DNA of 64,000 bases from positions 1 to 64,000 of the forward strand of contig JADZEX010000030.1 of the NCBI GenBank assembly GCA_020850355.1, written 5' to 3'. The position numbers were made by a program, and so were the translations under genes. The notes under the pieces are model-generated. The model was given only the letters and a program-made list of their open reading frames with translations. It was not told where the DNA came from and did no database searches. Origin of the DNA: Fimbriimonadaceae bacterium. GTDB lineage: Bacteria > Armatimonadota > UBA10988. How positions within the stretch are numbered: the first letter of the stretch is position 1; the number at the start of each line of letters is the position of its first letter. Of this stretch, positions 10,288-36,550 are shown piece by piece.

Positions 10288-11937
10288 TCAGGGCAGCGTC
10301 GGCGCCGCGGCGGCCCGCAGCAAGGTCACCCGCGGCCAGGCGCCACAGGGCAGCTCGACCGACCCGCCCGCGACCGGCGGCGCAGGGTTGCCGAAGGGGT
10401 CGTAGACGACCACCTCGCGGGCCTCCGTGCGGACCGTCAGGCGGCTCTCCTGCAGGTTCTCGGCGAAGGTCGCCAGCAGGCGGTCGGGCCCGCGACGGAA
10501 GAGGTAGACGTGCTGCCCCGGCGTTTGGCGCAAGACCTGCTCGCAGCGGGCGCCGGCCAGCAGGTTGACCAGCGCGGTCAGCCCACCGTAGGCGAAGCGC
10601 GGGCAGAAGAAGTGGTCGACGAAGCCGAAATCCGGGTCGCCGAGCTTCTGCCGCGGCCCGCCGATCTCGCGACTGGCGTAGAGCAACGCCCCGCGGTGGC
10701 CGTGAGCCCAGCAGTAGAGCAGCTTCTGCAACCCCGTGACGCCCTGCATCCGCTCCTGGTCGAGGCGCCACGCGGCGTAGCCCATTTCGGTGTTGCAGAG
10801 CGGCCGGACGGGCTGCTCGGCGGCGGCGTGGGTTGCCAGGATGGCGCGCTCCGCCCACAGCAGGTTGCCGAGGTCACCGTGCGAGTGGTAGTCGATCAGC
10901 CCCACCTGCCCGCGCAGCGTGCGGGCGAACTGGCCGCACCAGGTCGGTTCGATCAGACAGTAGCCCGGACTGCCGACCAGCACTTGGGGCGCGCCGCGCC
11001 GCAGTTCGTCGAGCGTCCAGGCCAGCAGCTCACCAAACTCGCCCGGTGTGCCGCGCCAGAAGTCACGGTTGTCGGGCTCGTTGTACAGCTCGACCGCGAC
11101 AGCCTGCGGACCGTACCGCGGCAGCAACTCGCGCAGCAGGCGGCGGGTCGGGTCCTCCTGTCGCGGGTACCGCCAGCGCGGGTCGGGGACCTGGGCATAG
11201 GCCGGCAGCACGGCCCACTCGGGCGGCTGGCAGAGCTGCAAGAACAGCCGGCAGCCTTGCGCGGTCCAGGCGCCGAAGGCCTCGTCGCAGGCGCTCCAGT
11301 CGATGGCCGCGGTGGGGCCGCTCCAACGCACCGGGACGTCGGGCCGCACCACCGTGACGCCCGACCGCGCCGCCAACTCGGCGTCCAGTTCGCGCGCCTG
11401 GGCCGCGGTCAAGCCGACGGGCCGACCCGGGCCATAGGCATTGGTCCAGTGTTGCCGCCCCGGGAAGGCACAGGTGCCGACCCAGAACTCGTCCTGCGCC
11501 CAGCGAGCCCGGGCCTCCTTGGCCGAGGCCAGCGCGGCCACGCTCCGCGCCAGCCGGGCGGTGAGCTGCTCGCCCCGCCAGCAGTCCAGGGTCAGCAGCC
11601 AGACGCCCTGTCCCCGCAGTTGCAGCGGCAGGCTGCTGCTGCCACCGGGCAGTGGCTGCTGCGCCACCGGGCGGTTCTCGCAGTCCCAGGCGGTCAGCAC
11701 CGCGCGGGTCACCGCCGCCGGCAGCTCCACCCGCAGCGTCGTCGCGCGGTCGGGGTCGCCGACCCACTGGTAAGGCTGCGGCGGCGCCAGCGTCGGCGCT
11801 GGTTGCTGCAGGTCGGCGTCGGGCAGGTTGGCCCACAGCAAGGGCACTCCCGGCTGCGGCAGGGCCGGCAGCCCGGGCGCCAGTTCCAACGCCGGCAGGC
11901 GCACCACCAGCAGCAACAGCCCGGCGAGCAGGCGCAT
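10288..11937 (-). CDS. Secreted clan GH-A glycoside hydrolase
   Basis: 549 aa with an N-terminal signal peptide (MRLLAGLLLLVVRLPALE). Residues about 30-130 form a small beta domain, then a (beta/alpha)8 barrel. The acid/base is probably E287 in VELYNEPDN, the NEP motif of clan GH-A; the nucleophile is probably E384 in CNTEMGYAAW. The spacing of about 97 residues fits retaining GH-A enzymes such as GH39, GH5 or related orphan families. The start codon overlaps the stop of the large lyase gene upstream (TGATG), so the two are translationally coupled. Substrate cannot be named; coupling to a heparinase-like lyase suggests an acidic polysaccharide or its oligosaccharides. Confidence 0.75.
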   Translation of the reverse strand: MRLLAGLLLLVVRLPALELAPGLPALPQPGVPLLWANLPDADLQQPAPTLAPPQPYQWVGDPDRATTLRVELPAAVTRAVLTAWDCENRPVAQQPLPGGSSSLPLQLRGQGVWLLTLDCWRGEQLTARLARSVAALASAKEARARWAQDEFWVGTCAFPGRQHWTNAYGPGRPVGLTAAQARELDAELAARSGVTVVRPDVPVRWSGPTAAIDWSACDEAFGAWTAQGCRLFLQLCQPPEWAVLPAYAQVPDPRWRYPRQEDPTRRLLRELLPRYGPQAVAVELYNEPDNRDFWRGTPGEFGELLAWTLDELRRGAPQVLVGSPGYCLIEPTWCGQFARTLRGQVGLIDYHSHGDLGNLLWAERAILATHAAAEQPVRPLCNTEMGYAAWRLDQERMQGVTGLQKLLYCWAHGHRGALLYASREIGGPRQKLGDPDFGFVDHFFCPRFAYGGLTALVNLLAGARCEQVLRQTPGQHVYLFRRGPDRLLATFAENLQESRLTVRTEAREVVVYDPFGNPAPPVAGGSVELPCGAWPRVTLLRAAAAPTLP

Positions 11938-14900
11938 CAGCGCACCGCCAGCCGCCGCAGCCGGCCGTCAGCGGTTGCCACAACGGTGCCGTCGCCGGTC
12001 ACCAGCAGATCCACCACGGCCGCCCCCAGGCGGGCGATCGACAACGGCTGGCCGCTGCCATCGAGCACCCACACCGCGCCGTCGGCGGTGCCGGCCAGCA
12101 CCAGGCGCTCGGCGGTGGTCAGCGCCGTCACCTCGCTGCCCAGGTCAACCCGCCAGCGGCGCCTGGCGTCGGCCCCGAAGCAGAACAGGTTGTAGTTCAG
12201 CGAGCCACCCAGGATCTCGTCCTGACCGTCGCCATCCAGGTCGGCGCAGGCGACCTGGCGCACCTCGTCGCCGGTGTCGGCCTTCAGCCTGGCCTTGCCG
12301 GCCGAGTCGACATAATGCAGCACGCCGTCGCCGCCGCCGAAGACGACCCCGCGGGTGGCATTGCCGTCGAACGAGCCGGTCGCGACGTCGTAGCAGATCG
12401 GGCCGAAGCTGTAGGCCCATTGCCGGGTCCCGTCGCCCTGCAGCGCGGTCGCCTGGTAGTAATGGGTGCCGCAGATCACCTCGGCCTTGCCGTCGCCGTT
12501 GAGGTCGGCCACCGCCCCGCTCTGCGAGGGATGCACGCTTTCGTAGTTCCAGAGCTCCTGGCCGGCCGCGTCGAAGGCGTAGAAGCGCCAGTTCTCGCCG
12601 CCCACAATCACCTCGGGCCGACCGTCACCGGTGAGGTCGCCGGTGCGCACCAGGTTGGCATTCGGTGGGCGCCGGTAGAACTTCAGCTCGGCGGTCCAGC
12701 GCTCGCGGCCGTCGGGACCCAGGACGGTCACGCGGAAGTCCTGCCGCGCCACGATCACCTCGTCGCGGCCGTCGCCGTCCAGGTCGGCGCAGGTCACGTC
12801 GTTGACCGCGCCGGGGAAGTCGACCTGCCAGAGCGGGCTGCCGTCGGCCCGGCGCGCCAGCAAGGTGCCTTGCCCCGTGGCCACCAGCAGGGCGCGGTCG
12901 TCGCCGGTCAGACGGCCGCTGGCCAGGCGCCGCAGATCGAACGGCAGCGTGCCGGCGTCGGCCGCCGGGAGCGTGCCGTGGACCACCAGCTCGGCGAGAT
13001 AGACCGCGCTGCCGGGTTGCGGCTGGATCACCAGCCGGATCTGCCGCGCCGGCGCCGCCGCGGTGACGCGGTACTCCCACGGCGCGCCGAAGTTCGGGTG
13101 CGGACCGGGGTCGGTGACCTCACCGAGCACACGCCGGTCGTTGACGAAGCCGTCGTTGGAGGCCAGCACCGTCGCCTTGCCGAGCAGGTACTTGGTGTTA
13201 CGCGACGAGTTGGTGGCCCACCACTGCCACCAGCGGACCGTCTGCACGGTGCTCTCGCCGGCCAGGTCGAGGGTTAAGGACACCGTCTGGTCCGGCTCGT
13301 ACATCGCGCTGGTCGCCGTCGAGTTGGCCCACGAGCCATCCAGCAGGTTGTCGAGCCGGTTGGCGGCCTCCGGCGCGAAGACGTTGGCCGCCGCCGGGAG
13401 CGGGTCGCTGGTCAGTTTGACGGCGCGGGTGACCCCGCCGGGCAGCCCGCGGTTGGCCGACAGGACGGCCAGCGTCGGCTGCGGCCGAACGTTCCAGAGC
13501 TCCCGCGGCGCCGGGGCGCTGGCGGTGGTGCCGAGGTTCGGCACTGGCGGCCGCGTCGGGAGCTGCGCCAGCGCCTCGTCGAGCTGTGGCAGCGGCAGAT
13601 CACGGTCGACGCGGTCCGGCGCGGCAAGCAGCTCGAGCCCGCCCGCGGTGGCCTGCTGCGCGCCCAGCAGGGTCAGCGTCTGCGCATCCAGCGCCAGCAT
13701 CTGGGCGTCGGTGTCGAAGTCGCCAGCCGGAGTCGGGGCCTGCAGCGGACCAAAGCTCACCGCCAGCGGCCCGCGTGGGGTCTCCAGCAGGATCCCGTCG
13801 CCGGCGCGCAGCCAGCGCACCGGCCAGGTCTTCACCTCGCCATCGGCGGCCCCGTGCAGCACGCTGGCAAAGCAGTACGTCTCGCCCGCCTGCAGGCGCA
13901 CCTGCGCCACCCCGCTGAGCGAGCGCACCACCGGGTCGGCGTGCTGGTAGCCAGCCCAGTTGGTGCCCAGCTCGGGGTCGTCGTGCAGGCTGAGCCGGGG
14001 ACCCGGCGCCACATCGATCCGCAGGGCCGGGCCGCGCTGGCTGAGCAACAGGCTGCCCGGCTCCAGCCGCGCTGCCCCGACGCCGTGCCAGAGCAGGCGG
14101 AACTGGTACTCGTCGCTGACCCGGGCGGTCAACTGGTCGAGCACGACAAAGGCGTGCAGCTCCTTCAGCCAGACCACCCCGCGGTCCCAATCGACGCCGG
14201 CGTAGTTGCTGAGCCGGGTGCGGCTGTAGCCGAAGCGGGCGGTCTCGCCGACGCCACGCAGCTCGGCGTAGGGCGGAATCGCGTCCGATTGGCCATCGCG
14301 GAAGACCAGCACGCTGTTGTGGTACTTGACCTGCGCCTTGAAGTAGTCGTTGTCGGCCAGCCAGATCCGGTCGAACTGCGTCAACCGCGGCAGGCTGTTG
14401 CCGTCCAGGTGCTTGTGCCCGCCGTTGGCCAGACCGTCGTAGAGCAGGTACTCGGCCTGCGGATCGAGCGCCGCCCGGAAGCTGATCTTGTCGATGCAGC
14501 GCTCGACCGGCGGGCTGGCCGCCTCCGGGAAGGTCTCCCTATAGCGCGGCTCCAGCGCAAAGGCGCGCACGCCGGTGACGGCGGTCGGCGGGCTGCCGGT
14601 GGTCGGGCGCGGGTAGTTGTAGAGCTCCCGCGGCCGGGCCCGCGCGGCCTTGCGGTCGGCCACCCAGGCCGCCGCCGGGTCGCCGGTCAGGAAGGCGAAG
14701 CCGTTCAGCAGGAACTGCTCGCTGGACCAACACTGCCACGACCCGGTGTCGCCGTAGGGCACCTGAATGTAGAGGTTGTCCATCGAACCGACCAGGTAGT
14801 CGATGGTCCGCCGGGCCTGCCCGTTGTCGATCCAGGTGCGGTCGGGCCGGGCCAGGCAGTAGCGCAGCAGGTGGCCGTTGGTCAGCCACTGGTAGCCGTT

Positions 14901-28004: not shown

Positions 28005-29387
28005 ATGTTCCGACACCTCTTCAGCGATCAGCCCGACAGCGCGGCACGGACGTTTTGGTACAGCTCCTGCGTCTGGTTTCTGGTCGGCACCACGATGGGC
28101 CTGCTGGCGTCGCTGTACTTCGTCAGCCCCAACGTGATGCGCGGCGTGGCGCCGTTGAGCTTCGGTCGGTTGCGCCCCATCCACGTCAACGTGGTGGCCT
28201 TCGGCTGGATCTCCATGGCCCACCTCGGCACGATGTACTACATCCTGCCGCGGCTCTGCCGTAGTCGACTCTACAGCGAACGCCTTGCCAACTTCATCGC
28301 CTGGGCCTGGAACGGCACCATCCTGTTCGCCATCGTCTCGCTCTTCATGGGCTTCACCGAGGGCAAGGAGTACGCCGAACTGGTCGCGCCGCTCGACATT
28401 CTGGTGATGGTGGCGCTGCTGCTGACCACCTTCAACGTGCTGATGACCATCGCCAACCGGCGCGAGCCGCTGATGTACGTCTCGCTCTGGTACTTCGCCG
28501 GCACGGTCTGCTGGTACCCGGTGATCTACTTCCTGGGCAACCGCACGTTCTTCGCCACCAACGGCCTCAACGATGCCATCGTCGGCTGGTTCTACGGTCA
28601 CAACACCCTCGGCCTGTGGTTCACCACGATGGGCATCGGGGCGACCTACTACCTGCTGCCACGACTCGTCAACAAGCCGATCTACAGCCACCTGCTGTCG
28701 CTGATCGGGTTCTGGACGGTGGCCATCTTCTACGCGCCGATCGGCGCGCACCATACGCTGCAGGCGCCGATCCCCGAGTGGCTGAAGGCCATCGCCTCGA
28801 CCAGCTCGGCGCTGATGGTGATCCCGGTGATCACCGTGCTGGTGAACTTCTTCAAGACGATGGACAACGAGTGGCACAAGGTGCCGGGCAACACGCCGCT
28901 GAAGTTCCTGACGATGGCGATGATCAGCTACCTGGTGACCTGCATCCAGGGCCCGTTGCAGGCCTCCCGGGCGATCAACGCCTACCTGCACTTCAGCCAG
29001 TGGGTCGTCGGTCACGCCCATATGGCGCTGCTGGGCACCTTCAGCTTCATCCAGATGGCCTTCATCTACTACGCGCTGCCGCGCGTGCTGAAGCGGCCGA
29101 TCTACAGCGAGCGGATCGCCAACGTGCAGTTCTGGGCGGGCGTGCTGTCGTTCTTCTTCTTCTTCGTGGCGCTGACCATCGCCGGGCTGCAGCAGGCCGC
29201 CGGCTGGAGCAGCCAGATCATGGTGCAGTACACCTCGCTCTGGCTGAAGCCGATGTACCTGCTGCGGACCTTCTCCGCGGTGATCCTGGTGTTCACCTTC
29301 TATCTGTTCGTCTACAACGTCTACATGACGGTACGGTCGGCAGCTCGTGAGCAGGCGCGGGCTGGGGCTGAGACGGCGGCCGCCTAG
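28005..29387 (+). CDS. ccoN: cbb3-type cytochrome c oxidase subunit I
   Basis: 460 aa membrane protein with about 12 helices; the catalytic subunit of a haem-copper oxidase that reduces O2 with cytochrome c electrons. Ligands in view: H60 in RPIHVNVVAFG for the low-spin haem, WFYGHNTLG and GAHHTLQAP for CuB, and HFSQWVVGHAHMALLG for the two haems. GATYYLLP carries the helix VII tyrosine of C-family enzymes. I chose ATG 28005, preceded by GAGGAAGG, over an earlier in-frame start. The inverted repeat GACAGTTGTC upstream (around 27940) could be an operator, but no promoter is convincing. It heads the respiratory block running to 36550. Confidence 0.95.
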   Translation: MFRHLFSDQPDSAARTFWYSSCVWFLVGTTMGLLASLYFVSPNVMRGVAPLSFGRLRPIHVNVVAFGWISMAHLGTMYYILPRLCRSRLYSERLANFIAWAWNGTILFAIVSLFMGFTEGKEYAELVAPLDILVMVALLLTTFNVLMTIANRREPLMYVSLWYFAGTVCWYPVIYFLGNRTFFATNGLNDAIVGWFYGHNTLGLWFTTMGIGATYYLLPRLVNKPIYSHLLSLIGFWTVAIFYAPIGAHHTLQAPIPEWLKAIASTSSALMVIPVITVLVNFFKTMDNEWHKVPGNTPLKFLTMAMISYLVTCIQGPLQASRAINAYLHFSQWVVGHAHMALLGTFSFIQMAFIYYALPRVLKRPIYSERIANVQFWAGVLSFFFFFVALTIAGLQQAAGWSSQIMVQYTSLWLKPMYLLRTFSAVILVFTFYLFVYNVYMTVRSAAREQARAGAETAAA

Positions 29388-29401
29388 GAGGGCTCGACGC
29401 G

Positions 29402-30859
29402 ATGCTGGGCAAAATCGACTATCGGCTCCCCTCGGCGATCATGGCGGTGATGCTGGGTGCCATCATCTGGTTGGTGGTGATCTACCCTGCCCTCGGCTAC
29501 AAGCTGGACCGCCCCGAGATCAACCCCGACCTCAGCGGCGAGGTGGGCGACTACAAGAAGCGCAAGGACTACACCGACCTGCAGTGGTACGGCCGGCGCG
29601 TCTACATCGAAGAGGGTTGCTTCTACTGCCACAGCCAGCAGGCCCGCTACCAGGACCGCGGGATGGGCCCGACGGCGATCCCGCAGGAGTTTCAGTTCGA
29701 CGGGCCGCACCTGCTCGGCTCGGCCCGCACCGGGCCGGACCTGGCGCGGGAGGGTGGCAAGTATCCCAGCCGCTGGCATCGCGAGCACCACATCAACCCG
29801 CGCTCGAAGTCGGCCGGCAGCATCATGCCGCGGTTCCAGCACCTCGACCACCAGCCGCTGGAGTTCCCTGACGCCCCGGAGATCGACTCCCAGGCCCTGC
29901 TGCGCGCGACGCCGGCCGAGCTGCGGAAGCAGTACGCCAGCGACACCGACCGGCAGTTGACGCCGGCCGAGACGATGCTCGAGCTGCGGGCGATCGGCTA
30001 CAGCGACTACGACGTGGTCAAGCCCGACGGCCGTGGCGTCACCCGCCTCGACGCGCTGGTGGCCTACATGCAGTGCCTCGGGCCGGGCCGCCTGTACGAG
30101 CCAGGTGGTGCCGTGCCGTGGCTGGAGGGTGTGCCGCACAAGCCTTCCTCAACCTACGCCCTCGGCCGCGATGGGGCCGCGCCGCAAGCGCTCCCGGCGG
30201 GTCTGCCGGCGCCGACCGACTGGTCCGGCCTGGGGGCCAAGGCGGCCGAGTACTGGGTGCCGTCCGAGTACCAGGACCTCGCCAAGAAGGCCCACGAGGA
30301 CATGAAGATTCCGGCCTTCGAGCCGCGCTTCATCGTCAACGGGCGGGGCATCTACCTGGAGAAGTGCGCGCCCTGCCACGGCCTGAACGGTCAGGGCAAC
30401 GGGCCGGCGGGGCGCTACATGATGAAGAAGCCCGCCAACTTCTGGCTGCCGCAGTTCAAGACCTACAGCGACGCGATGTGGTTCTACCGGGTCGCCGAGG
30501 GCGTGCCCGGGACCGAGATGCCGGTCTGGAAGCACTCCCTGCGGCAGCGCAAGAAGCACCAGGAGTGGGACCAGATCTGGTATCTGGTGACCTACCTGAA
30601 GTACATCGCGGCGGCCTCACCGCTGCAGCCGGTGCCGTACGACCTGCCGCCGGAGTACTACCTGGCCGACCAGGACCGCGCCCGCCGCGGGATGTTCCCG
30701 GTCGACGCGGCGCTGGTCGCGCAGGTCCAGGCCGAGCTGGCGAAGAAGGCGGCGCAGCCGGCCGCTCCGGCCACGCCTAGCACCACCGCGCCAGCAGCGG
30801 CACCGCCTGTCGCGCCGCCGGCTGCGGCGGCCCCCAGCGCCCCGGCCGCGGCGCACTAG
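29402..30859 (+). CDS. ccoO: cbb3 oxidase subunit II fused to a second cytochrome c domain
   Basis: 485 aa. One N-terminal helix (about 11-30), then a CcoO-type cytochrome c domain with C73-F-Y-C76-H77 and an IMPRF axial methionine. A second cytochrome c domain has C322-A-P-C325-H326 and a GTEMPVW methionine. The tail from about 440 is Ala/Pro-rich. Normal CcoO is a monohaem protein of about 200-240 residues, and the dihaem CcoP is separate; no ccoP is seen here, so the added domain may replace part of CcoP. The gene follows ccoN by 14 bases. Function: delivers electrons to the CcoN haem-copper centre from the periplasmic side. Confidence 0.9.
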   Translation: MLGKIDYRLPSAIMAVMLGAIIWLVVIYPALGYKLDRPEINPDLSGEVGDYKKRKDYTDLQWYGRRVYIEEGCFYCHSQQARYQDRGMGPTAIPQEFQFDGPHLLGSARTGPDLAREGGKYPSRWHREHHINPRSKSAGSIMPRFQHLDHQPLEFPDAPEIDSQALLRATPAELRKQYASDTDRQLTPAETMLELRAIGYSDYDVVKPDGRGVTRLDALVAYMQCLGPGRLYEPGGAVPWLEGVPHKPSSTYALGRDGAAPQALPAGLPAPTDWSGLGAKAAEYWVPSEYQDLAKKAHEDMKIPAFEPRFIVNGRGIYLEKCAPCHGLNGQGNGPAGRYMMKKPANFWLPQFKTYSDAMWFYRVAEGVPGTEMPVWKHSLRQRKKHQEWDQIWYLVTYLKYIAAASPLQPVPYDLPPEYYLADQDRARRGMFPVDAALVAQVQAELAKKAAQPAAPATPSTTAPAAAPPVAPPAAAAPSAPAAAH

Positions 30860-30869
30860 GAGCAAGTTG

Positions 30870-31046
30870 ATGTACTGCGATTGCATCCTCTCGCGAGCTG
30901 GGTTCCAGTCGGGGTACCTGCCGGTGTTCCTGATCTCGGTGGTCTTCGTGGTCGCCGCGCTGGCGGTGATGGTCGGCGGCTGGCGCACCACGCGGTTCCA
31001 GGAGATGGAGCGCGCCAAGGATCAGATGATGTCGGTCGAGGAGTGA
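30870..31046 (+). CDS. Small single-helix membrane protein in the oxidase block
   Basis: 58 aa, read directly from the sequence. It starts MYCDCILSRAGFQSGYLPVF and has one membrane helix at about 17-37, then a charged tail ending MMSVEE. AGGAGCAAG precedes the ATG by about five bases, and the ccoO stop is only 10 bases upstream. Its size and place suggest a CcoQ/CcoH-like accessory subunit, but the sequence is not recognised. The N-terminal Cys pair (C3, C5) is a curious detail. Confidence 0.75.
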   Translation: MYCDCILSRAGFQSGYLPVFLISVVFVVAALAVMVGGWRTTRFQEMERAKDQMMSVEE

Positions 31047-31058
31047 GGGAGGCGCGAG

Positions 31059-31253
31059 ATGAGTGAACAGCCGAACCAGCCCGCGCCGGCCACGCCGGAC
31101 TACTTGGAAGACGAGATGAGCGTCGCCGAGAGCATCGGCGAGGACGAGGGCGTTCAGGTCGGGCACGCTGGGGCGCCGATCTTCTGGGTGGTCTGCGTGG
31201 TCCTGATCCTGTGCTGGGCGATGGTCGCCTGGAAACCGTGGAAGGGCTACTGA
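31059..31253 (+). CDS. Small membrane protein in the oxidase block
   Basis: 64 aa. The acidic N-terminal half (about 1-38) is probably cytosolic, followed by one helix APIFWVVCVVLILCWAMVAW and a short end KPWKGY. GGGAGGCG precedes the ATG. The stop overlaps the start of the dihaem lipoprotein (TGATG). It could be the equivalent of the CcoP membrane anchor or an assembly subunit; no family is recognised. Confidence 0.75.
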   Translation: MSEQPNQPAPATPDYLEDEMSVAESIGEDEGVQVGHAGAPIFWVVCVVLILCWAMVAWKPWKGY

Positions 31254-31993
31254 TGCGGCACACGAGCGCGACGGTGAAACGACGAACCGCAGCGGGCGCG
31301 GCCCTCGCGGTCGCCGGCCTCCTGACGGCCTGTGGGCCGGTGCGGGTGGCCGGTGGCGGTCAGGTGGCGCAGCCGTTGCACGTGGTTGAGCACAACGCCA
31401 TCGACTTCCATACCGACGAAGCGCTGCTGCCCTCCAAGGTGCCGCAAGCCGGCCACGGGCGGGAGGTCTACAGCCGCAAGGTCAACGGCAAGTCGTGCGC
31501 CGGCTGCCACGGCGACCAGGGCCAGCCCAGCGTGGCCGGGGCGCCGGACTTCAGCCAGCCCGACTGGATCCGCAGCAAGACGCCCCTCGAGCTGGAGCAG
31601 TTTCTGCGCACCGGGCCGGGCCACGATTACGGTGTCACGCTGACCTTGCAGGAGCGCTGGGACGTCGTCTGCTGGTGCCGCCACTTGGCCGTCAACATGG
31701 ACGAGGTGCGCGAGACCGCGACCGGACGGTTCGGCAAGAACTGCAATGTCTGCCACGGCAACAAGGGCTTCGGCAACGGGTTCTTGGCGCCGACGATGCA
31801 GCCGCTACCGCGCAACTTGACCGACTTCCCGACCTGGGGCATCCACCGCAGCGACCAGGAGATCTACGACAACATCTGGTACGGCGTGCACTGGTCGGCG
31901 ATGCCGCCCTGGCGGGGGACCCTGCAGCCGCAGGAAGTCTGGCAGATCGTGGACTTCATCCGCGCGCAGCAGTACGCGCCGCCTGAGAACTGA
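31253..31993 (+). CDS. Dihaem cytochrome c lipoprotein
   Basis: 246 aa. The signal peptide ends in a lipobox, LLTAC, with Cys27 as the lipidation site. Two c-type haem sites follow: SCAGCHGDQG and CNVCHGNKG, each heading a small cytochrome c domain; MQPLP and SAMPPW carry candidate axial methionines. It probably shuttles electrons on the outer face between the Rieske/cytochrome b complex at 32008-34258 and the cbb3 oxidase. The ATG overlaps the previous stop (TGATG). The next gene starts 14 bases after its stop. Confidence 0.9.
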   Translation: MRHTSATVKRRTAAGAALAVAGLLTACGPVRVAGGGQVAQPLHVVEHNAIDFHTDEALLPSKVPQAGHGREVYSRKVNGKSCAGCHGDQGQPSVAGAPDFSQPDWIRSKTPLELEQFLRTGPGHDYGVTLTLQERWDVVCWCRHLAVNMDEVRETATGRFGKNCNVCHGNKGFGNGFLAPTMQPLPRNLTDFPTWGIHRSDQEIYDNIWYGVHWSAMPPWRGTLQPQEVWQIVDFIRAQQYAPPEN

Positions 31994-32007
31994 CGGAAGG
32001 ACACCCC

Positions 32008-32631
32008 ATGGCGAAGGAACCTGTCGGCCCGCGCGATAACCGCTCCGAAGTCAGCCGCCGCGACTTTGCGTCGATGGTGGTGATGGGCGTGGCCGCCGTC
32101 GCCCTGGCCGGGCTGGCCTCGGTCTCGATGGCGATGCGCTACCTGCGCCCGAAGATGACGCCCTTCAACTTCATCCAAGCCCCCGACAAGGCGAACGTGC
32201 CGAACCAGGTGGTGGCGACCGTCGCCGAGCTGCAGGAGCCCTGGAAGGTCAAGGACTTCATCTTCCGGCAGGTCAACATCGAGTACACGCCGCGCGGCCA
32301 GCAGCAGGTCGAGATCCCCGGCTTCGCGGTACGGCTGCCCGACGAGGCCGGGCAGGCCGACACCAAGTACATCGAAGTCTACAGCCGGATCTGCCCGCAT
32401 CTCGGGTGCATCTTCAACTTCGAGACGGAGCCCGACCTCGTGCAGAAGAACTACGGCGGGTTCCGGCCGCCCGGACCGGTTTTCGCCTGCCCCTGCCACC
32501 TCAGCATTTACGACGTGGCCCACGACGGCAAGGTGATCTCGGGGCCGGCCCCGCGGCCGCCCTACAAGTTCCAGTTCAAGCTGGAAGGCGATGACGTGAT
32601 CGTGACGGCGCCTCCGGGCGGTCTGGCCTAA
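32008..32631 (+). CDS. Rieske [2Fe-2S] protein of a cytochrome bc-type complex
   Basis: 207 aa. A twin-arginine-like SRRDFASMVVMG (16-27) starts the membrane anchor, as in many Rieske proteins. The cluster is bound by C129-P-H131-L-G-C134 and C161-P-C163-H164, the CTHLGC/CPCHGS pair with minor changes. The usual two His and two Cys ligands, and the two extra disulfide cysteines, are present. It accepts one electron from quinol at the Qo site and passes it to a cytochrome c. It sits directly before the cytochrome b gene (13-base gap). Cluster potential cannot be read from the sequence. Confidence 0.95.
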   Translation: MAKEPVGPRDNRSEVSRRDFASMVVMGVAAVALAGLASVSMAMRYLRPKMTPFNFIQAPDKANVPNQVVATVAELQEPWKVKDFIFRQVNIEYTPRGQQQVEIPGFAVRLPDEAGQADTKYIEVYSRICPHLGCIFNFETEPDLVQKNYGGFRPPGPVFACPCHLSIYDVAHDGKVISGPAPRPPYKFQFKLEGDDVIVTAPPGGLA

Positions 32632-32644
32632 GGCGGAGGGCACC

Positions 32645-34258
32645 ATGGCGAGCGAAGCGCTGCAAGGCCAAGGCAAGTTCTGGACCTGGTTCGACGACCA
32701 GGTGCGGCTGCTCAAGAAGAAGATCGCCGCGGTCGACCTGTTCGACGAGACCTTGGCGGACCAGGCTGCCAGCAACCCGTGGTACGCCCTCGGGTCGATG
32801 GTCTACTTCTTCTGGTTGACCACCATCGTCACCGGCTTGATGCTGATCGCCTGGTACATCCCGAACACCTCGCGGGCGTTTGACAGCATCTTGCACATTC
32901 AGGAGGGCATCCCGGGCGGCTGGCTGATCCGCGGGCTCCACAAGTACGCCGCCGACGCCATCATCATCGCGGCCACGATGCGGGTCTACCGGCTCTACTT
33001 CACCGGCGAGTACAAGACTCGGGAGATCGCCTGGCTGGTCTCGATCATCACCCTGATCCTGGGGATGTTCAGCGGCCTGACCGGGTACCTGCTGATGTGG
33101 AACCAGCGCGCCTTCTGGGCTTCGAAAGTGTTCGCGACGTTCCCGACCTACATCGACGAGATCCCGATTCTCGGGCAGTTGCACCTCGGCATGACCACCG
33201 CGCAGTTCATGCTCGGCGGCACAGCCATCGGCGATGCCACCCTGACGCGCTTCTACGCCGGCCACTTCGCGATGTCGATGCTGCTGCTGATCCCGGTCGA
33301 GGCCTACTTCATCCGCAAGGGCTTCAAGCGCATTTCGCTGTCGTGGCTGACGATGGGCGTCTGCCTGGCGATGCTGACCAGCGTGGCCTTCCTGATCCCC
33401 GTCGAGTTGGGCAGCCGGGCGAACCGCGCCGAGACGCCGCTGCCGATCCTCTCCGACTGGTACTTCCTCGGGCTGTACCAGATGATGAAGGAGATGAAGC
33501 CGCTCTACGCGGTGATCGGCACGATGTTCATCCCGGCCATCGCCATCCTGATGCCGGCCTTCGACACCGCCAAGGATGTGCCAACCTGGCGCCGGCCGTT
33601 CTTCCTGAGTGTCGGCCTGGCGGCGTTCATCCATTGGCTGCTGCTGTCGTTGATGATCATCAAGGACTACGCGCAGATCACCACGGACCCCCCGAAGATC
33701 TGGGCCTCTTGGATCGTGATCATGCTCTGCGGGGCCTGCTTCGAGTACAAGGCGATGGGCTACCCGCGCAAGGCCGTGACGCGGCGGGTGGTCTTGACGT
33801 TGCTCGGCTGGGCGGTGCTGTTCGCGACCTTCGCCGGCTGGACGCGGTTCCGGCAGCCGCCCTACACCGCCAGCTACCTGCCGGCGGCGATGCACAAGCT
33901 GGTGGTGGACGAGTCGCCGGAAGTCCGGGACGAGCGCAACGGGCGGTACAGCGGCGACGATCCGGCGACGGTCCGCGACGAGATCCTGAACGCCATCAGC
34001 CGGCCGATCGTCAGCGAGTGGTACGTCGCCAGCCCGTCGGCGCTGGAGAAGCTCAAGAAGGAGCAGGACGGCGTTCGCGGCTGCTGGGTGATGATGACGA
34101 TGGCGCTGCTGCTGTGCGGGCTGGTGGCGATCGCGACGACGCCGACGGCGGGGATTGAGTCGTTGATCTACCCGTCGCGCACGCCGCGCGGCCGGAAGAT
34201 CAAGGGCCTCGGCCCACCGCCGAAGCCAGCCGCGACGGCGGAGCCCGCAGCGACATGA
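32645..34258 (+). CDS. Cytochrome b (b6 + subunit IV fused) of the Rieske complex, haem bH ligands missing
   Basis: 537 aa, with about eight membrane helices plus a C-terminal extension. NPWYALG, GWLIRGLHKYAADA, GLTGYLLMWNQRAFWA and GDATLTRFYAGH fit the cytochrome b family. H99 (helix B) and H207 (helix D), the haem bL pair, are present. At the haem bH positions, 14 residues on, are R113 and Y221 (F222 if a 15-residue b6-type gap is used). Both bH ligands are therefore absent. The Qo motif is S270-D-W-Y273 in place of P-E-W-Y. It has no cysteine before residue 240, so a b6-type haem ci site is unlikely. A tail helix (about 480) and a Pro-rich end follow. It overlaps the next gene by four bases. 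Confidence 0.85.
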   Translation: MASEALQGQGKFWTWFDDQVRLLKKKIAAVDLFDETLADQAASNPWYALGSMVYFFWLTTIVTGLMLIAWYIPNTSRAFDSILHIQEGIPGGWLIRGLHKYAADAIIIAATMRVYRLYFTGEYKTREIAWLVSIITLILGMFSGLTGYLLMWNQRAFWASKVFATFPTYIDEIPILGQLHLGMTTAQFMLGGTAIGDATLTRFYAGHFAMSMLLLIPVEAYFIRKGFKRISLSWLTMGVCLAMLTSVAFLIPVELGSRANRAETPLPILSDWYFLGLYQMMKEMKPLYAVIGTMFIPAIAILMPAFDTAKDVPTWRRPFFLSVGLAAFIHWLLLSLMIIKDYAQITTDPPKIWASWIVIMLCGACFEYKAMGYPRKAVTRRVVLTLLGWAVLFATFAGWTRFRQPPYTASYLPAAMHKLVVDESPEVRDERNGRYSGDDPATVRDEILNAISRPIVSEWYVASPSALEKLKKEQDGVRGCWVMMTMALLLCGLVAIATTPTAGIESLIYPSRTPRGRKIKGLGPPPKPAATAEPAAT

Positions 34259-34512
34259 AGCGGGCGTTCTGGATCGGTACCTGGGTGGTGGCGATTCTGG
34301 CGCTGTCGCAGGTGATCGAAGCCGGGAAGACCTGGCGCGAGGCGTCGGGGCTGCTGTTCGTGGTGGAGACGATCGGATGGTGCGTCGCTCTGCTGGGTGC
34401 GGTCGGTCTGCTGACCCTGCGCACCTACGCCAGGGAGCGGGCCAAGGGCAACGTGCAACGGCCGGTGGCGTTGTTCGAGCGGATACTGGAACGAGGTGCT
34501 GACGGTGAGTGA
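34255..34512 (+). CDS. Two-helix small membrane protein of the cytochrome b cluster
   Basis: 85 aa with helices at about 5-21 and 32-56, followed by a basic tail. It overlaps the cytochrome b stop by four bases (ATGA) and the following gene by eight bases, so it is surely co-translated. No family is recognised. It is probably a subunit of the Rieske/cytochrome b complex. Confidence 0.7.
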   Translation: MKRAFWIGTWVVAILALSQVIEAGKTWREASGLLFVVETIGWCVALLGAVGLLTLRTYARERAKGNVQRPVALFERILERGADGE

Positions 34513-34744
34513 AGCCTCGAAAACCAAACTGGGCGGGCTGATCATGGCCGCGGGCATCGGGCTCGGCGTGCTGCTGGTGATCGTCGAGTTCCTCAACGGT
34601 CCCCGCGGCGAGGCGCAGCCTGGGCTCTTCGGGATCGTCTCCCCGCACATGGTGTGGGCCGAGCGGGCCTTCATCTTCCTCTTTGGCGTGGTCCACCTGA
34701 TCGTGGCCGCCATCATCACCGTCTTCCGGAGGACCGCGGTATGA
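34505..34744 (+). CDS. Two-helix small membrane protein of the cytochrome b cluster
   Basis: 79 aa from GTG 34505, chosen because CGAGG lies eight bases upstream; the GTG at 34496 overlaps that site. Helices span about 9-27 and 50-75. Its stop overlaps the start of the cytochrome b-ferredoxin gene (ATGA). No family is recognised. It may pair with the protein at 34255. Confidence 0.7.
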   Translation: MSEASKTKLGGLIMAAGIGLGVLLVIVEFLNGPRGEAQPGLFGIVSPHMVWAERAFIFLFGVVHLIVAAIITVFRRTAV

Positions 34745-35955
34745 GCGCGCAGCCGATTGAAGCGGTCGAACGGGACGATGTCCTGCAGCCGCGCCACCCC
34801 TACCGGCGCTTCCTGCGGAGCGCCACGCGCTGGCAGGTGGCCGTCGAGCGGAAGGTCAACGAGCTGGTCAGCTACGAGCAGAACCCGTTCTACTTCCACG
34901 GGGCGCTGCCGACCTTCGTCTTCTGGATGCTCATCGCCAGCGGCATCGGGTTGCTGTTCTACTACAAGGCAACCCTCACCGAGTCCTACGAGAGCCTGGT
35001 CTATCTGGCCAAGGTGCCGTTCGGAAACTGCATCCGCTCCAGCCACCGCTACAGCGCCGACGCGATGCTCCTGGCGATCTACCTGCACACCTTCCGGGTC
35101 TACATTACCGACCGCCACCGCGAGTACCGCATCGTGCCCTGGCTGACCGGTGTGGTGTTGCTGCTGTTGACCTACGTCGCTGGCATCTCGGGCTACATGC
35201 TGGTCGGCGACCAGCGCTCCTGGGGGCTGATCCATCAGAGCGTGCAGGCCTTCCAGGCGGTGCCGCTGGTCGGCGACTTCCTGGCCAGCCAGGTGCTCGC
35301 CGGGCCGGACATCACCGACTACACGGTAGCCCGGGCGCTGTTCTTCCATCTGCTCAGCGCGATGGCCATCTTCTGGTTCCTCTGGATGCACCTGCTGCGG
35401 ATCCGGCGGCCGTTCATGATCGTGACGATCGGCATCGGCGCGGCCGTGGTGGGCGTGATCCTGATGGTCGCCGGGCTCTGGCCGGCTGGCAGCTACACGC
35501 CAGTTGTCGAGCCGATGCACGTCCCGGAAGCCTACGAGATTGGCAACTGGCTCTACCTGCCGGGCTTCTGGCTGCTCTCGAGCGCCGGCCCGCTGGCCTT
35601 CTGGGGCGCCGTGGTGCTGCTCTTCGGCGGGCTGCTGATGCTGCCCTACCTGCTGCGCGACACCCGCCGCAACATCGCGATGGTGGTGCGTGACAAGTGC
35701 GTCGGTTGCCAGCTCTGCGCCATCGACTGCCCCTACTCGGCGATCACGATGGTGCCGACCTGGAACGAGCGGAAGAAGAAGCCCGACCTGCTGGCGGTGG
35801 TCTACCCGCCACGCTGTTCGGAGTGTGGCGTCTGCATCGGATCCTGCGACTTCGATGCGATTGAGCTGAGCAGCATGCCGTACCGTCCGATTGAGGACCT
35901 GGTCAAGGAGCTGGCCCCGAAGCGCGAGGCGCCGGCCGAGGCGGCGGGAGACTAG
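34741..35955 (+). CDS. Cytochrome b with C-terminal double [4Fe-4S] ferredoxin domain
   Basis: 404 aa. The N-terminal cytochrome b domain keeps all four haem ligands: H102 and H116 in helix B, H203 and H217 in helix D, each 14 residues apart. GNWLYLPGFWLL near 268-279 sits where PEWY would be and lacks the Qo residues. After the last helix (about 285-304) come two [4Fe-4S] sites: C320-VG-C323-QL-C326-AID-C330 and C359-SE-C362-GV-C365-IGS-C369. This predicts electron flow between membrane quinone/haems and a cytosolic partner, probably the MvhD-like protein encoded three bases downstream. The ATG overlaps the upstream stop. A gene of this build within a Rieske/cytochrome b cluster is uncommon in my knowledge, but it may have been seen in other phyla. 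Confidence 0.85.
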   Translation: MSAQPIEAVERDDVLQPRHPYRRFLRSATRWQVAVERKVNELVSYEQNPFYFHGALPTFVFWMLIASGIGLLFYYKATLTESYESLVYLAKVPFGNCIRSSHRYSADAMLLAIYLHTFRVYITDRHREYRIVPWLTGVVLLLLTYVAGISGYMLVGDQRSWGLIHQSVQAFQAVPLVGDFLASQVLAGPDITDYTVARALFFHLLSAMAIFWFLWMHLLRIRRPFMIVTIGIGAAVVGVILMVAGLWPAGSYTPVVEPMHVPEAYEIGNWLYLPGFWLLSSAGPLAFWGAVVLLFGGLLMLPYLLRDTRRNIAMVVRDKCVGCQLCAIDCPYSAITMVPTWNERKKKPDLLAVVYPPRCSECGVCIGSCDFDAIELSSMPYRPIEDLVKELAPKREAPAEAAGD

Positions 35956-35958
35956 GCG

Positions 35959-36435
35959 ATGAGCGAACCGACGGTGGCCACCACCGCAACTCCTCCGGCG
36001 GCGCCCTTCGTGCCGCAGGTGCTGGCCTTGGTGTGCGAGCGGAGCGTGCCGATTGACGAGCTGATCGGCCCCGACCAGCGCCTCCGCGACGCGCCGCAGG
36101 TCTACGTCCTGCGCTTTCCGTGCAGCGGCATGATCAAGCCGTCGCTGGCGCAGTTGGCGCTCGACGAAGGCTGGGACGGCGTGCTGGTGGTCGGCTGCGC
36201 CGTCGGCGATTGCCACTTCCGCGAAGGCAACCTGTGGGCCCGCGAGCGCTTCCTCGGCGGTCGCGCCCCGAACAAGTTCCGGCGGATGGACCAGCAACGG
36301 GTCAGCCTGCTGTGGCGCGCGGCCTCCGAGGCCGGACCGTTCTTGAGCGAGGTGGGCAGCTTCTGTGACCACCTGCGGACCCTGCCGCCGAACCTGAGGA
36401 GCGATGATGGCAAAGGACGCAAGCGGAAGCGCTGA
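35959..36435 (+). CDS. MvhD/FlpD-like iron-sulfur electron-transfer protein
   Basis: 158 aa. The core FPCSGMIKPSLAQLALDEG, DGVLVVGCAVGDCHFREGN and RVSLLWRAASEAGPF matches the methyl-viologen-reducing hydrogenase delta (MvhD/FlpD) family. That family normally binds a [2Fe-2S] cluster and links hydrogenase or dehydrogenase to heterodisulfide reductase. C26, C55, C80 and C85 are present, but the family's second N-terminal cysteine (CxxC) is replaced by S29. It starts three bases after the cytochrome b-ferredoxin stop. Expected role: accept or donate electrons between the ferredoxin domain and a soluble redox enzyme. No hydrogenase, HdrA or flavoprotein gene is adjacent. Confidence 0.8.
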   Translation: MSEPTVATTATPPAAPFVPQVLALVCERSVPIDELIGPDQRLRDAPQVYVLRFPCSGMIKPSLAQLALDEGWDGVLVVGCAVGDCHFREGNLWARERFLGGRAPNKFRRMDQQRVSLLWRAASEAGPFLSEVGSFCDHLRTLPPNLRSDDGKGRKRKR

Positions 36436-36550
36436 AGGCAAGGAACTCACGCCGCGCGCCCAGATCGACTGGAAGTACGTGCTGTTCTACGTACTGTTCT
36501 ACGTCTGTCTGGTCTTCATCGCCCTGTTTGGTGTGATCGCCGAGGTCTGA
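36407..36550 (+). CDS. Small single-helix membrane protein closing the respiratory block
   Basis: 47 aa, read directly. Its start lies inside the MvhD-like gene: GAGGAG at 36396-36401 is followed by two ATGs, and 36407 has the better spacing. The product starts MAKDASGSAEGKELTPRAQI and has one hydrophobic helix YVLFYVLFYVCLVFIALFGV. The 29-base overlap implies co-translation. It converges with the murU-like gene, with a three-base gap between the stops. Probably a complex subunit; no family is recognised. Confidence 0.7.
   Translation: MAKDASGSAEGKELTPRAQIDWKYVLFYVLFYVCLVFIALFGVIAEV

Follow-up and report, generated by a model that had tools for sequence, protein, structure and literature searches.

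The window (the whole 64,000-nucleotide stretch that we analysed, on contig C31) comes from a 6.67-Mb Armatimonadota genome and holds a redox gene cluster on its plus strand. The functional unit is the whole cluster, at about 28005-36550, of which a preliminary description of this DNA had delimited only the second cytochrome b gene and the gene after it. The cluster opens with a ccoN-like heme-copper oxidase subunit I (28005-29387; Pfam COX1, 9e-88; NCBIfam ccoN, 7e-84), whose position is matched in Melainabacteria operons, and with ccoO-P, a ccoO gene fused to cytochrome c (29402-30859; FixO, 1e-37, plus Cytochrom_C). These are followed by sm0 (31059-31253), encoding a small single-helix protein conserved in Melainabacteria (phmmer matches in loci L021 and L104-L107), by a two-haem cytochrome c that is probably a lipoprotein (31253-31993; Cytochrome_CBB3, 8e-17; two CxxCH motifs), and by a Rieske [2Fe-2S] protein (32008-32631; PF00355, 4e-6; TIGR01416, 2e-13) whose two Cys-His ligand pairs lie in the motifs CPHLGC and CPCH. 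Directly downstream of the Rieske gene stands a first cytochrome b, b1 (32645-34258). A second one, b2 (34741-35955), comes after two small genes, and an FlpD/MvhD-like iron-sulfur protein (35959-36435) lies beyond it.

Three further genes encode small membrane proteins: smA (34255-34512) and smB (34496-34744, an ORF whose start is uncertain) between the two cytochromes b, and smC (36404-36550) at the end of the cluster. Operon comparison found smA conserved in Caldisericota and Melainabacteria as well, and smC in Melainabacteria, while Pfam and NCBIfam profile searches gave zero family matches for all three. They may be subunits of the complex, since smA is conserved even in Caldisericota. 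The host genome contains seven Rieske-domain genes in all, and its contig C52 (locus L004) carries a second, conventional Rieske/cytochrome b pair with an HPEWYF motif and the bH histidine present.

Complementary losses in two cytochromes b

In the family alignment, the haem bL histidines (H99 and H207 in the window protein) and a [SP]DWY Qo motif (SDWY in the window) are retained in all 34 b1 proteins. The bL and bH ligands were assigned by the histidine spacing and order of canonical cytochrome b, and the bH ligands then belong 14 residues beyond the bL histidines, where b1 has R113 and Y221. Position 113 (codon at 32981-32983), in place of the first bH-ligand histidine, is Arg in 31 of the 34 family members and Lys in 3; codons 219-221 (33299-33307) encode a Glu219 found in 34/34 and, at the second bH-ligand position, a Tyr found in 33/34 and replaced by His in 1/34. 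The helix-B bH histidine is absent from every b1, and the helix-D one from 33 of 34. Every other cytochrome b among the studied loci, conventional or fused and including that on contig C52, keeps the helix-B histidine at the bH position, so the predicted loss of the bH ligands is a conserved trait specific to b1, and the earlier view of the first cytochrome b as bH-less holds across the family. Compared with the features of a bc1/b6f-type complex, b1 carries a variant of the PEWY Qo motif but is predicted to lack one of the two b haems of a Qo-bearing cytochrome b. A single-chain model of b1 was predicted with moderate confidence (pLDDT 74). One Caldisericota b1 (L025:9844-11901) carries nearly 300 additional residues, many of them charged, between its helices A and B, and its near relatives are shorter forms of 493 aa or less.

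The b2 protein of 404 aa matches Pfam Cytochrome_B at residues 43-223 (E 4e-28) and ends in a dicluster [4Fe-4S] domain at residues about 315-376 (35683-35868; Fer4 match). It appears to be a bis-haem protein: the ligands H102/H116 and H203/H217 are present, as are two complete CxxCxxCxxxC motifs (C320/323/326/330 and C359/362/365/369). These four haem histidines and eight cluster cysteines, the former as well as the latter already recognised in the preliminary description, are invariant in 34/34 unfused family members. The same description held that b2 has no Qo motif; this stands for the window protein, in which the motif is degenerate (EIGNWLYL), and has to be softened for its kin, many of which keep a vestigial DW, with PDWF or PDWY in some fused forms. 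As judged from their motifs, b1 and b2 show complementary, conserved losses, of the bH ligands in b1 and of Qo in b2. We rejected chance or an annotation artefact as an explanation because the motifs do not vary across 34 operons from three phyla.

The likeness of the next gene product to MvhD/FlpD was confirmed: its PF02662 match reaches 71.5 bits against a curated cut-off of 22.3 (E 8e-20), placing it in the MvhD/FlpD family, and solved MvhD chains in the PDB match it at E about 1e-14. Four cysteines (C26, C55, C80 and C85), the putative cluster ligands, are kept in 33/33 sequences. The window FlpD is the single PF02662 member of its host genome, and FlpD is likewise the single member in 5 of 6 other genomes searched, a Caldisericota genome holding three. 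Genes for HdrABC or hydrogenase partners were absent from the window operon, and none were seen in the Caldisericota operons. We rejected a link to hydrogenase or heterodisulfide reductase on the absence of Hdr/hydrogenase genes in the window operon together with the single host FlpD gene.

Distribution, fusion and co-inheritance

Full-length b2 was detected with the b2 profile in 3/291 Armatimonadota, 5/292 Cyanobacteriota-phylum and 8/54 Caldisericota genomes. The b1 profile picked out those three Armatimonadota genomes again, along with 78 of 289 from the class Melainabacteria, close non-photosynthetic relatives of Cyanobacteria; a 79th match in this class (G1073) is a b2 at a contig start and was left out of the count. 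The 24 Melainabacteria regions follow the order ccoN, ccoO-P, cytochrome c, Rieske, b1, b2, FlpD except where a contig end cuts them, and 21 of them contain b1, b2 and FlpD together. In Caldisericota, a mostly anaerobic phylum, all eight operons share the order Rieske, b2, FlpD, FeS protein, AsrA/HydB-like FeS protein, AsrB/HydG-like FAD/NAD protein, b1, one of the eight b1 genes being interrupted by a contig end. The genes after FlpD in all 8 are FlxC-, AsrA- and AsrB/HydG-like (FAD/NAD), and the set resembles FlxABCD with FlpD as FlxD, an assignment to Flx made by gene content and not by tree. Neither cytochrome c nor oxidase genes were found near the Rieske gene in the Caldisericota operons (L025, L108-L114). 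The survey of gene order that had been suggested as a check thus shows the cluster order conserved in Armatimonadota, Melainabacteria and Caldisericota.

An NAD(P) oxidoreductase subunit is absent from the window operon, whereas its Caldisericota relatives have a FAD/NAD subunit. Searches for an AsrB/FlxA-like gene found none in the window host or its two Armatimonadota relatives and no more than weak matches in the five Melainabacteria searched, which are probably unrelated electron-transfer subunits of dihydroorotate dehydrogenase.

Independent occurrence of the two cytochromes b had been named as evidence against a joint system, and here the survey gives a divided answer. Wherever the DNA was uncut by a contig end, b1 was never found without b2, in the three Armatimonadota as in Melainabacteria, where the gaps are contig ends. 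On the other side, b2 and FlpD occur without b1 as a fused form. All 28 of the Burkholderiales and spirochaete dicluster cytochromes of the b2 family are a single protein with an FlpD domain, found in 17/250 Burkholderiales genomes and in 11/149 genomes of Turneriella's spirochaete phylum. COX1 and COX2 genes adjoin the fused gene in 15 of 16 regions examined, and no Rieske or b1 gene was detected around it in the 16 regions fetched. Since the fused form occurs without b1 beside heme-copper oxidases, b1 and b2 are not strictly obligate partners, and b2-FlpD can therefore have some role without a Qo-bearing partner. The AlphaFold2 model of one such fusion (L024) has a mean pLDDT of 88 and a pTM of 0.88, so its domain arrangement is predicted with confidence overall.

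A tree built from 79 cytochrome b domains placed the b1 proteins of the three phyla in one clade (100/96), nearest to conventional cytochromes b. Across a 100/99 branch from b1 lay b2, the fused proteins and a set of cytochrome b-[2Fe-2S]-FAD/NAD fusions, with the Caldisericota b2 apart from the Armatimonadota and Melainabacteria b2. The pairwise distances of b1, b2 and FlpD were strongly correlated in Mantel comparisons (r = 0.97-0.98 over 31 operons; 0.92-0.96 within Melainabacteria), with 0 of 2000 permutations as high as observed. The three genes are, on these distances, co-inherited; because correlated distances also reflect shared species history, the result speaks for co-inheritance and is no proof of contact.

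A candidate route from quinol to a cytosolic carrier

Textbooks present complex III as a symmetric homodimer from which the second quinol electron goes back into the quinone pool. The cluster described here appears to encode a bacterial complex III built from two unlike cytochromes b, a layout recurring in three phyla, and it suggests that respiration can divert electrons to a cytosolic carrier. We propose an asymmetric Rieske/cytochrome b complex in which a b1-b2 heterodimer would send the second quinol electron to such a carrier through iron-sulfur clusters and FlpD, a reading to which we give close to an even chance.

From these parts we infer that b1 and b2 pair, that an electron crosses between their bL haems, which way it flows and which carrier it reaches, as follows. 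Quinol would be oxidised at the Qo site of b1, and the first electron would pass to the Rieske cluster, then to the two-haem cytochrome c and on to the cbb3-type oxidase. The second would go to haem bL of b1, across to haem bL of b2 and then to bH of b2. The crossing is proposed because b1 lacks a bH site, which leaves the electron no onward path inside b1; if b1 and b2 dimerise as cytochromes b do, the sole path from Qo to the other side would be bL(b1), bL(b2), bH(b2). Such wiring is physically feasible, since an engineered Rhodobacter bc1, one half of which has its Qo disabled and the other its bH, still turns over by way of bL-bL transfer (PMC4330944). Beyond bH(b2) the electron would meet either a quinone at a b2 Qi site or the FeS clusters and FlpD. 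In the scheme that we propose it would follow the two [4Fe-4S] clusters to the FlpD-like protein on the cytosolic side. The carrier would be NAD(P) in Caldisericota, reduced through FlxCBA-like subunits, and perhaps a ferredoxin as the soluble carrier in the window organism. We hold it possible, if short of probable, that O2-driven quinol oxidation in a natural heterodimeric complex III directly drives NAD(P)/ferredoxin reduction by way of bL(b1)-bL(b2)-bH(b2)-2[4Fe-4S]-FlpD, conserved from Armatimonadota to Melainabacteria and joined in Caldisericota by a full FAD/NAD module.

A quinol-oxidising system with a cytosolic outlet had been put forward from the window alone. That proposal is borne out in part, in that b1, b2 and FlpD belong together, by gene order, by correlated distances (r 0.92-0.98) and by 28/28 fusions. 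The outlet itself has the FlxABC-type FAD/NAD module of the Caldisericota operon in its favour and the missing AsrB/FlxA-like gene of the window host against it. Taken as they stand, the sequences are compatible with electron exit (bifurcation), with electron entry (a dehydrogenase) or with a Qi site on b2. Bifurcation to a cytosolic carrier is plausible, and the Caldisericota FAD/NAD subunits, with a dicluster and an FlpD that are strictly retained, incline us to a cytosolic way out or in rather than to a cycle run on quinone alone.

That quinone-based cycle is the foremost rival, although we consider it unlikely. The b1-b2 heterodimer would run a Q cycle in which b2 reduces quinone at an n-side (Qi) site, and the FeS/FlpD tail would be a side door that serves, say, cyclic electron flow or redox sensing. 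It accords with the presence in b2 of the two haems usual for a cytochrome b, and with the Qo-Qi connection that the cross-inactivated bc1 maintains through bL-bL transfer (PMC4330944); the AsrB/FlxA-like partner gene was also not found in the Armatimonadota hosts. Yet a side door sits poorly with a dicluster domain and an FlpD retained without exception, and the full FAD/NAD module of the Caldisericota operons is more than a side door.

Reversed flow is improbable in our judgement. Here NAD(P)H via Flx-like subunits, or ferredoxin, would feed FlpD, the FeS clusters and b2, and electrons would leave to quinone or outward while b1 and the Rieske protein oxidise quinol. Such an inward-to-outward conduit would suit the fused b2-FlpD that stands beside cytochrome oxidases without Rieske or b1, and Ramos et al. 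(cited by title in PMC7382037) described Flx-Hdr as an NADH dehydrogenase/heterodisulfide reductase. But electron input leaves the bH loss in b1 plus the Qo loss in b2, seen in every operon, unexplained, and a dehydrogenase of this kind would waste the energy that complex I conserves, an argument made for anammox bacteria (PMC12954380).

The operon might instead encode two separate machines, one a b1 homodimer with Rieske that passes electrons to the oxidase with no Q cycle, the other b2-FlpD acting on its own. The solitary b2-FlpD of Burkholderiales and spirochaetes lends this some colour, but we think it very unlikely, as b1 and b2 are co-inherited, b1 is never seen without b2, and a b1 homodimer would give the bL electron no exit and stall bifurcation at Qo. 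Least credible of all is b2-FlpD as an assembly or maturation factor of heme-copper oxidases (a CcoG-like cupric reductase): oxidase genes do adjoin it in Melainabacteria, Armatimonadota, Burkholderiales and spirochaetes, frequently accompanied by SCO genes, but the Caldisericota operons have no nearby oxidase and still keep Rieske, b1, b2, FlpD and the FAD/NAD module.

If the asymmetric complex is real, the bL-bL crossing would be obligatory in a natural dimer with complementary losses, and the long-argued physiological role of that step could be examined in a native enzyme instead of mutants. Should the exit through FlpD be real too, respiring bacteria could obtain low-potential reductant straight from the oxidation of quinol. 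Our view of the aerobic chain in Melainabacteria would also change, given the 78 of 289 sampled genomes with b1.

Relation to known systems

The best reading of the cluster is a variant of the Rieske/cytochrome b kind and a natural counterpart of the engineered cross-inactivated bc1. Like the latter (PMC4330944), the proposed b1/b2 pair would join a half without bH to a half without Qo and leave bL-bL transfer as the sole route. The engineered enzymes, however, are man-made point mutants without an FeS/FlpD outlet, whereas the asymmetry of b1 and b2 is natural and conserved.

Bifurcation "of a new sort", as first claimed, was an overstatement, because the idea itself had already been put forward for anammox bacteria: Kartal and colleagues proposed that a Rieske/cytochrome b complex there bifurcates electrons from quinol to make NAD(P)H, and Hauser et al. 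2025 gave this support (PMC12954380). With menaquinol at about -70 mV, the energy released in the downhill branch can suffice to reduce NAD(P) at -320 mV (PMC12954380). The anammox complexes (Kuste4569-4574 and Kustd1480-1485; PMC12954380) share with the window cluster the combination of Rieske/cytochrome b with a cytosolic redox module. They differ in having one b6-like cytochrome b, for which a homodimer with subunit IV has been modelled, and in using hexa- and octahaem cytochromes c and an NAD(P) oxidoreductase subunit, where the window operon has a two-haem cytochrome c only. Two unlike cytochromes b, a cytochrome-b-bound dicluster, FlpD and a cbb3-type oxidase set the window cluster apart from them.

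FlxABCD-HdrABC and MvhD-type systems likewise contain an FlpD/MvhD-family protein, and the Caldisericota operons add FlxC-, AsrA- and AsrB/HydG-like subunits to the likeness. Unlike Flx-Hdr, the cluster has no HdrABC in its operon, and the electron partner would be a membrane-bound cytochrome b that carries two [4Fe-4S] clusters.

Melainabacteria Rieske and cytochrome b6-like genes (PetB/PetC) beside a C-type oxygen reductase have been noted as complex III/IV (PMC6349859), and very probably belong to the same operon family as the window cluster. That account annotates them as cytochrome b6f components and, in the passages covered here, makes no mention of bH loss, a second cytochrome b, an FeS domain or FlpD (PMC6349859). 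In the portion of the literature covered we found no earlier description of the layout with two unlike cytochromes b, and a prior mention is possible.

A further relative is the Burkholderiales cytochrome b-[2Fe-2S]-FAD/NAD fusion (L024, L026), which like b2 wires a cytochrome b to a cytosolic redox module and has heme-copper oxidase neighbours; in the tree it is the sister group of the Burkholderiales fused b2 proteins. Unlike b2-FlpD, it replaces 2[4Fe-4S]-FlpD with plant-type [2Fe-2S] and FNR-like domains, and it has no Rieske protein. A cytochrome b fused to NAD/flavin domains has reportedly been described in an Accumulibacter genome paper. Some Burkholderiales clusters (L024:9944-15387, L026:9929-15478 and related loci) hold two wired cytochromes b beside oxidase genes, namely cytochrome b-2[4Fe-4S]-FlpD and cytochrome b-[2Fe-2S]-FAD/NAD; a NorB/ccoN-like gene lies close to them. 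The spirochaete b2-FlpD fusion is extended at its C-terminus (L023:11500-12136) by about 200 residues that include a membrane helix, and in L026 a separate small gene after the fusion (11506-12081) looks similar to this extension.
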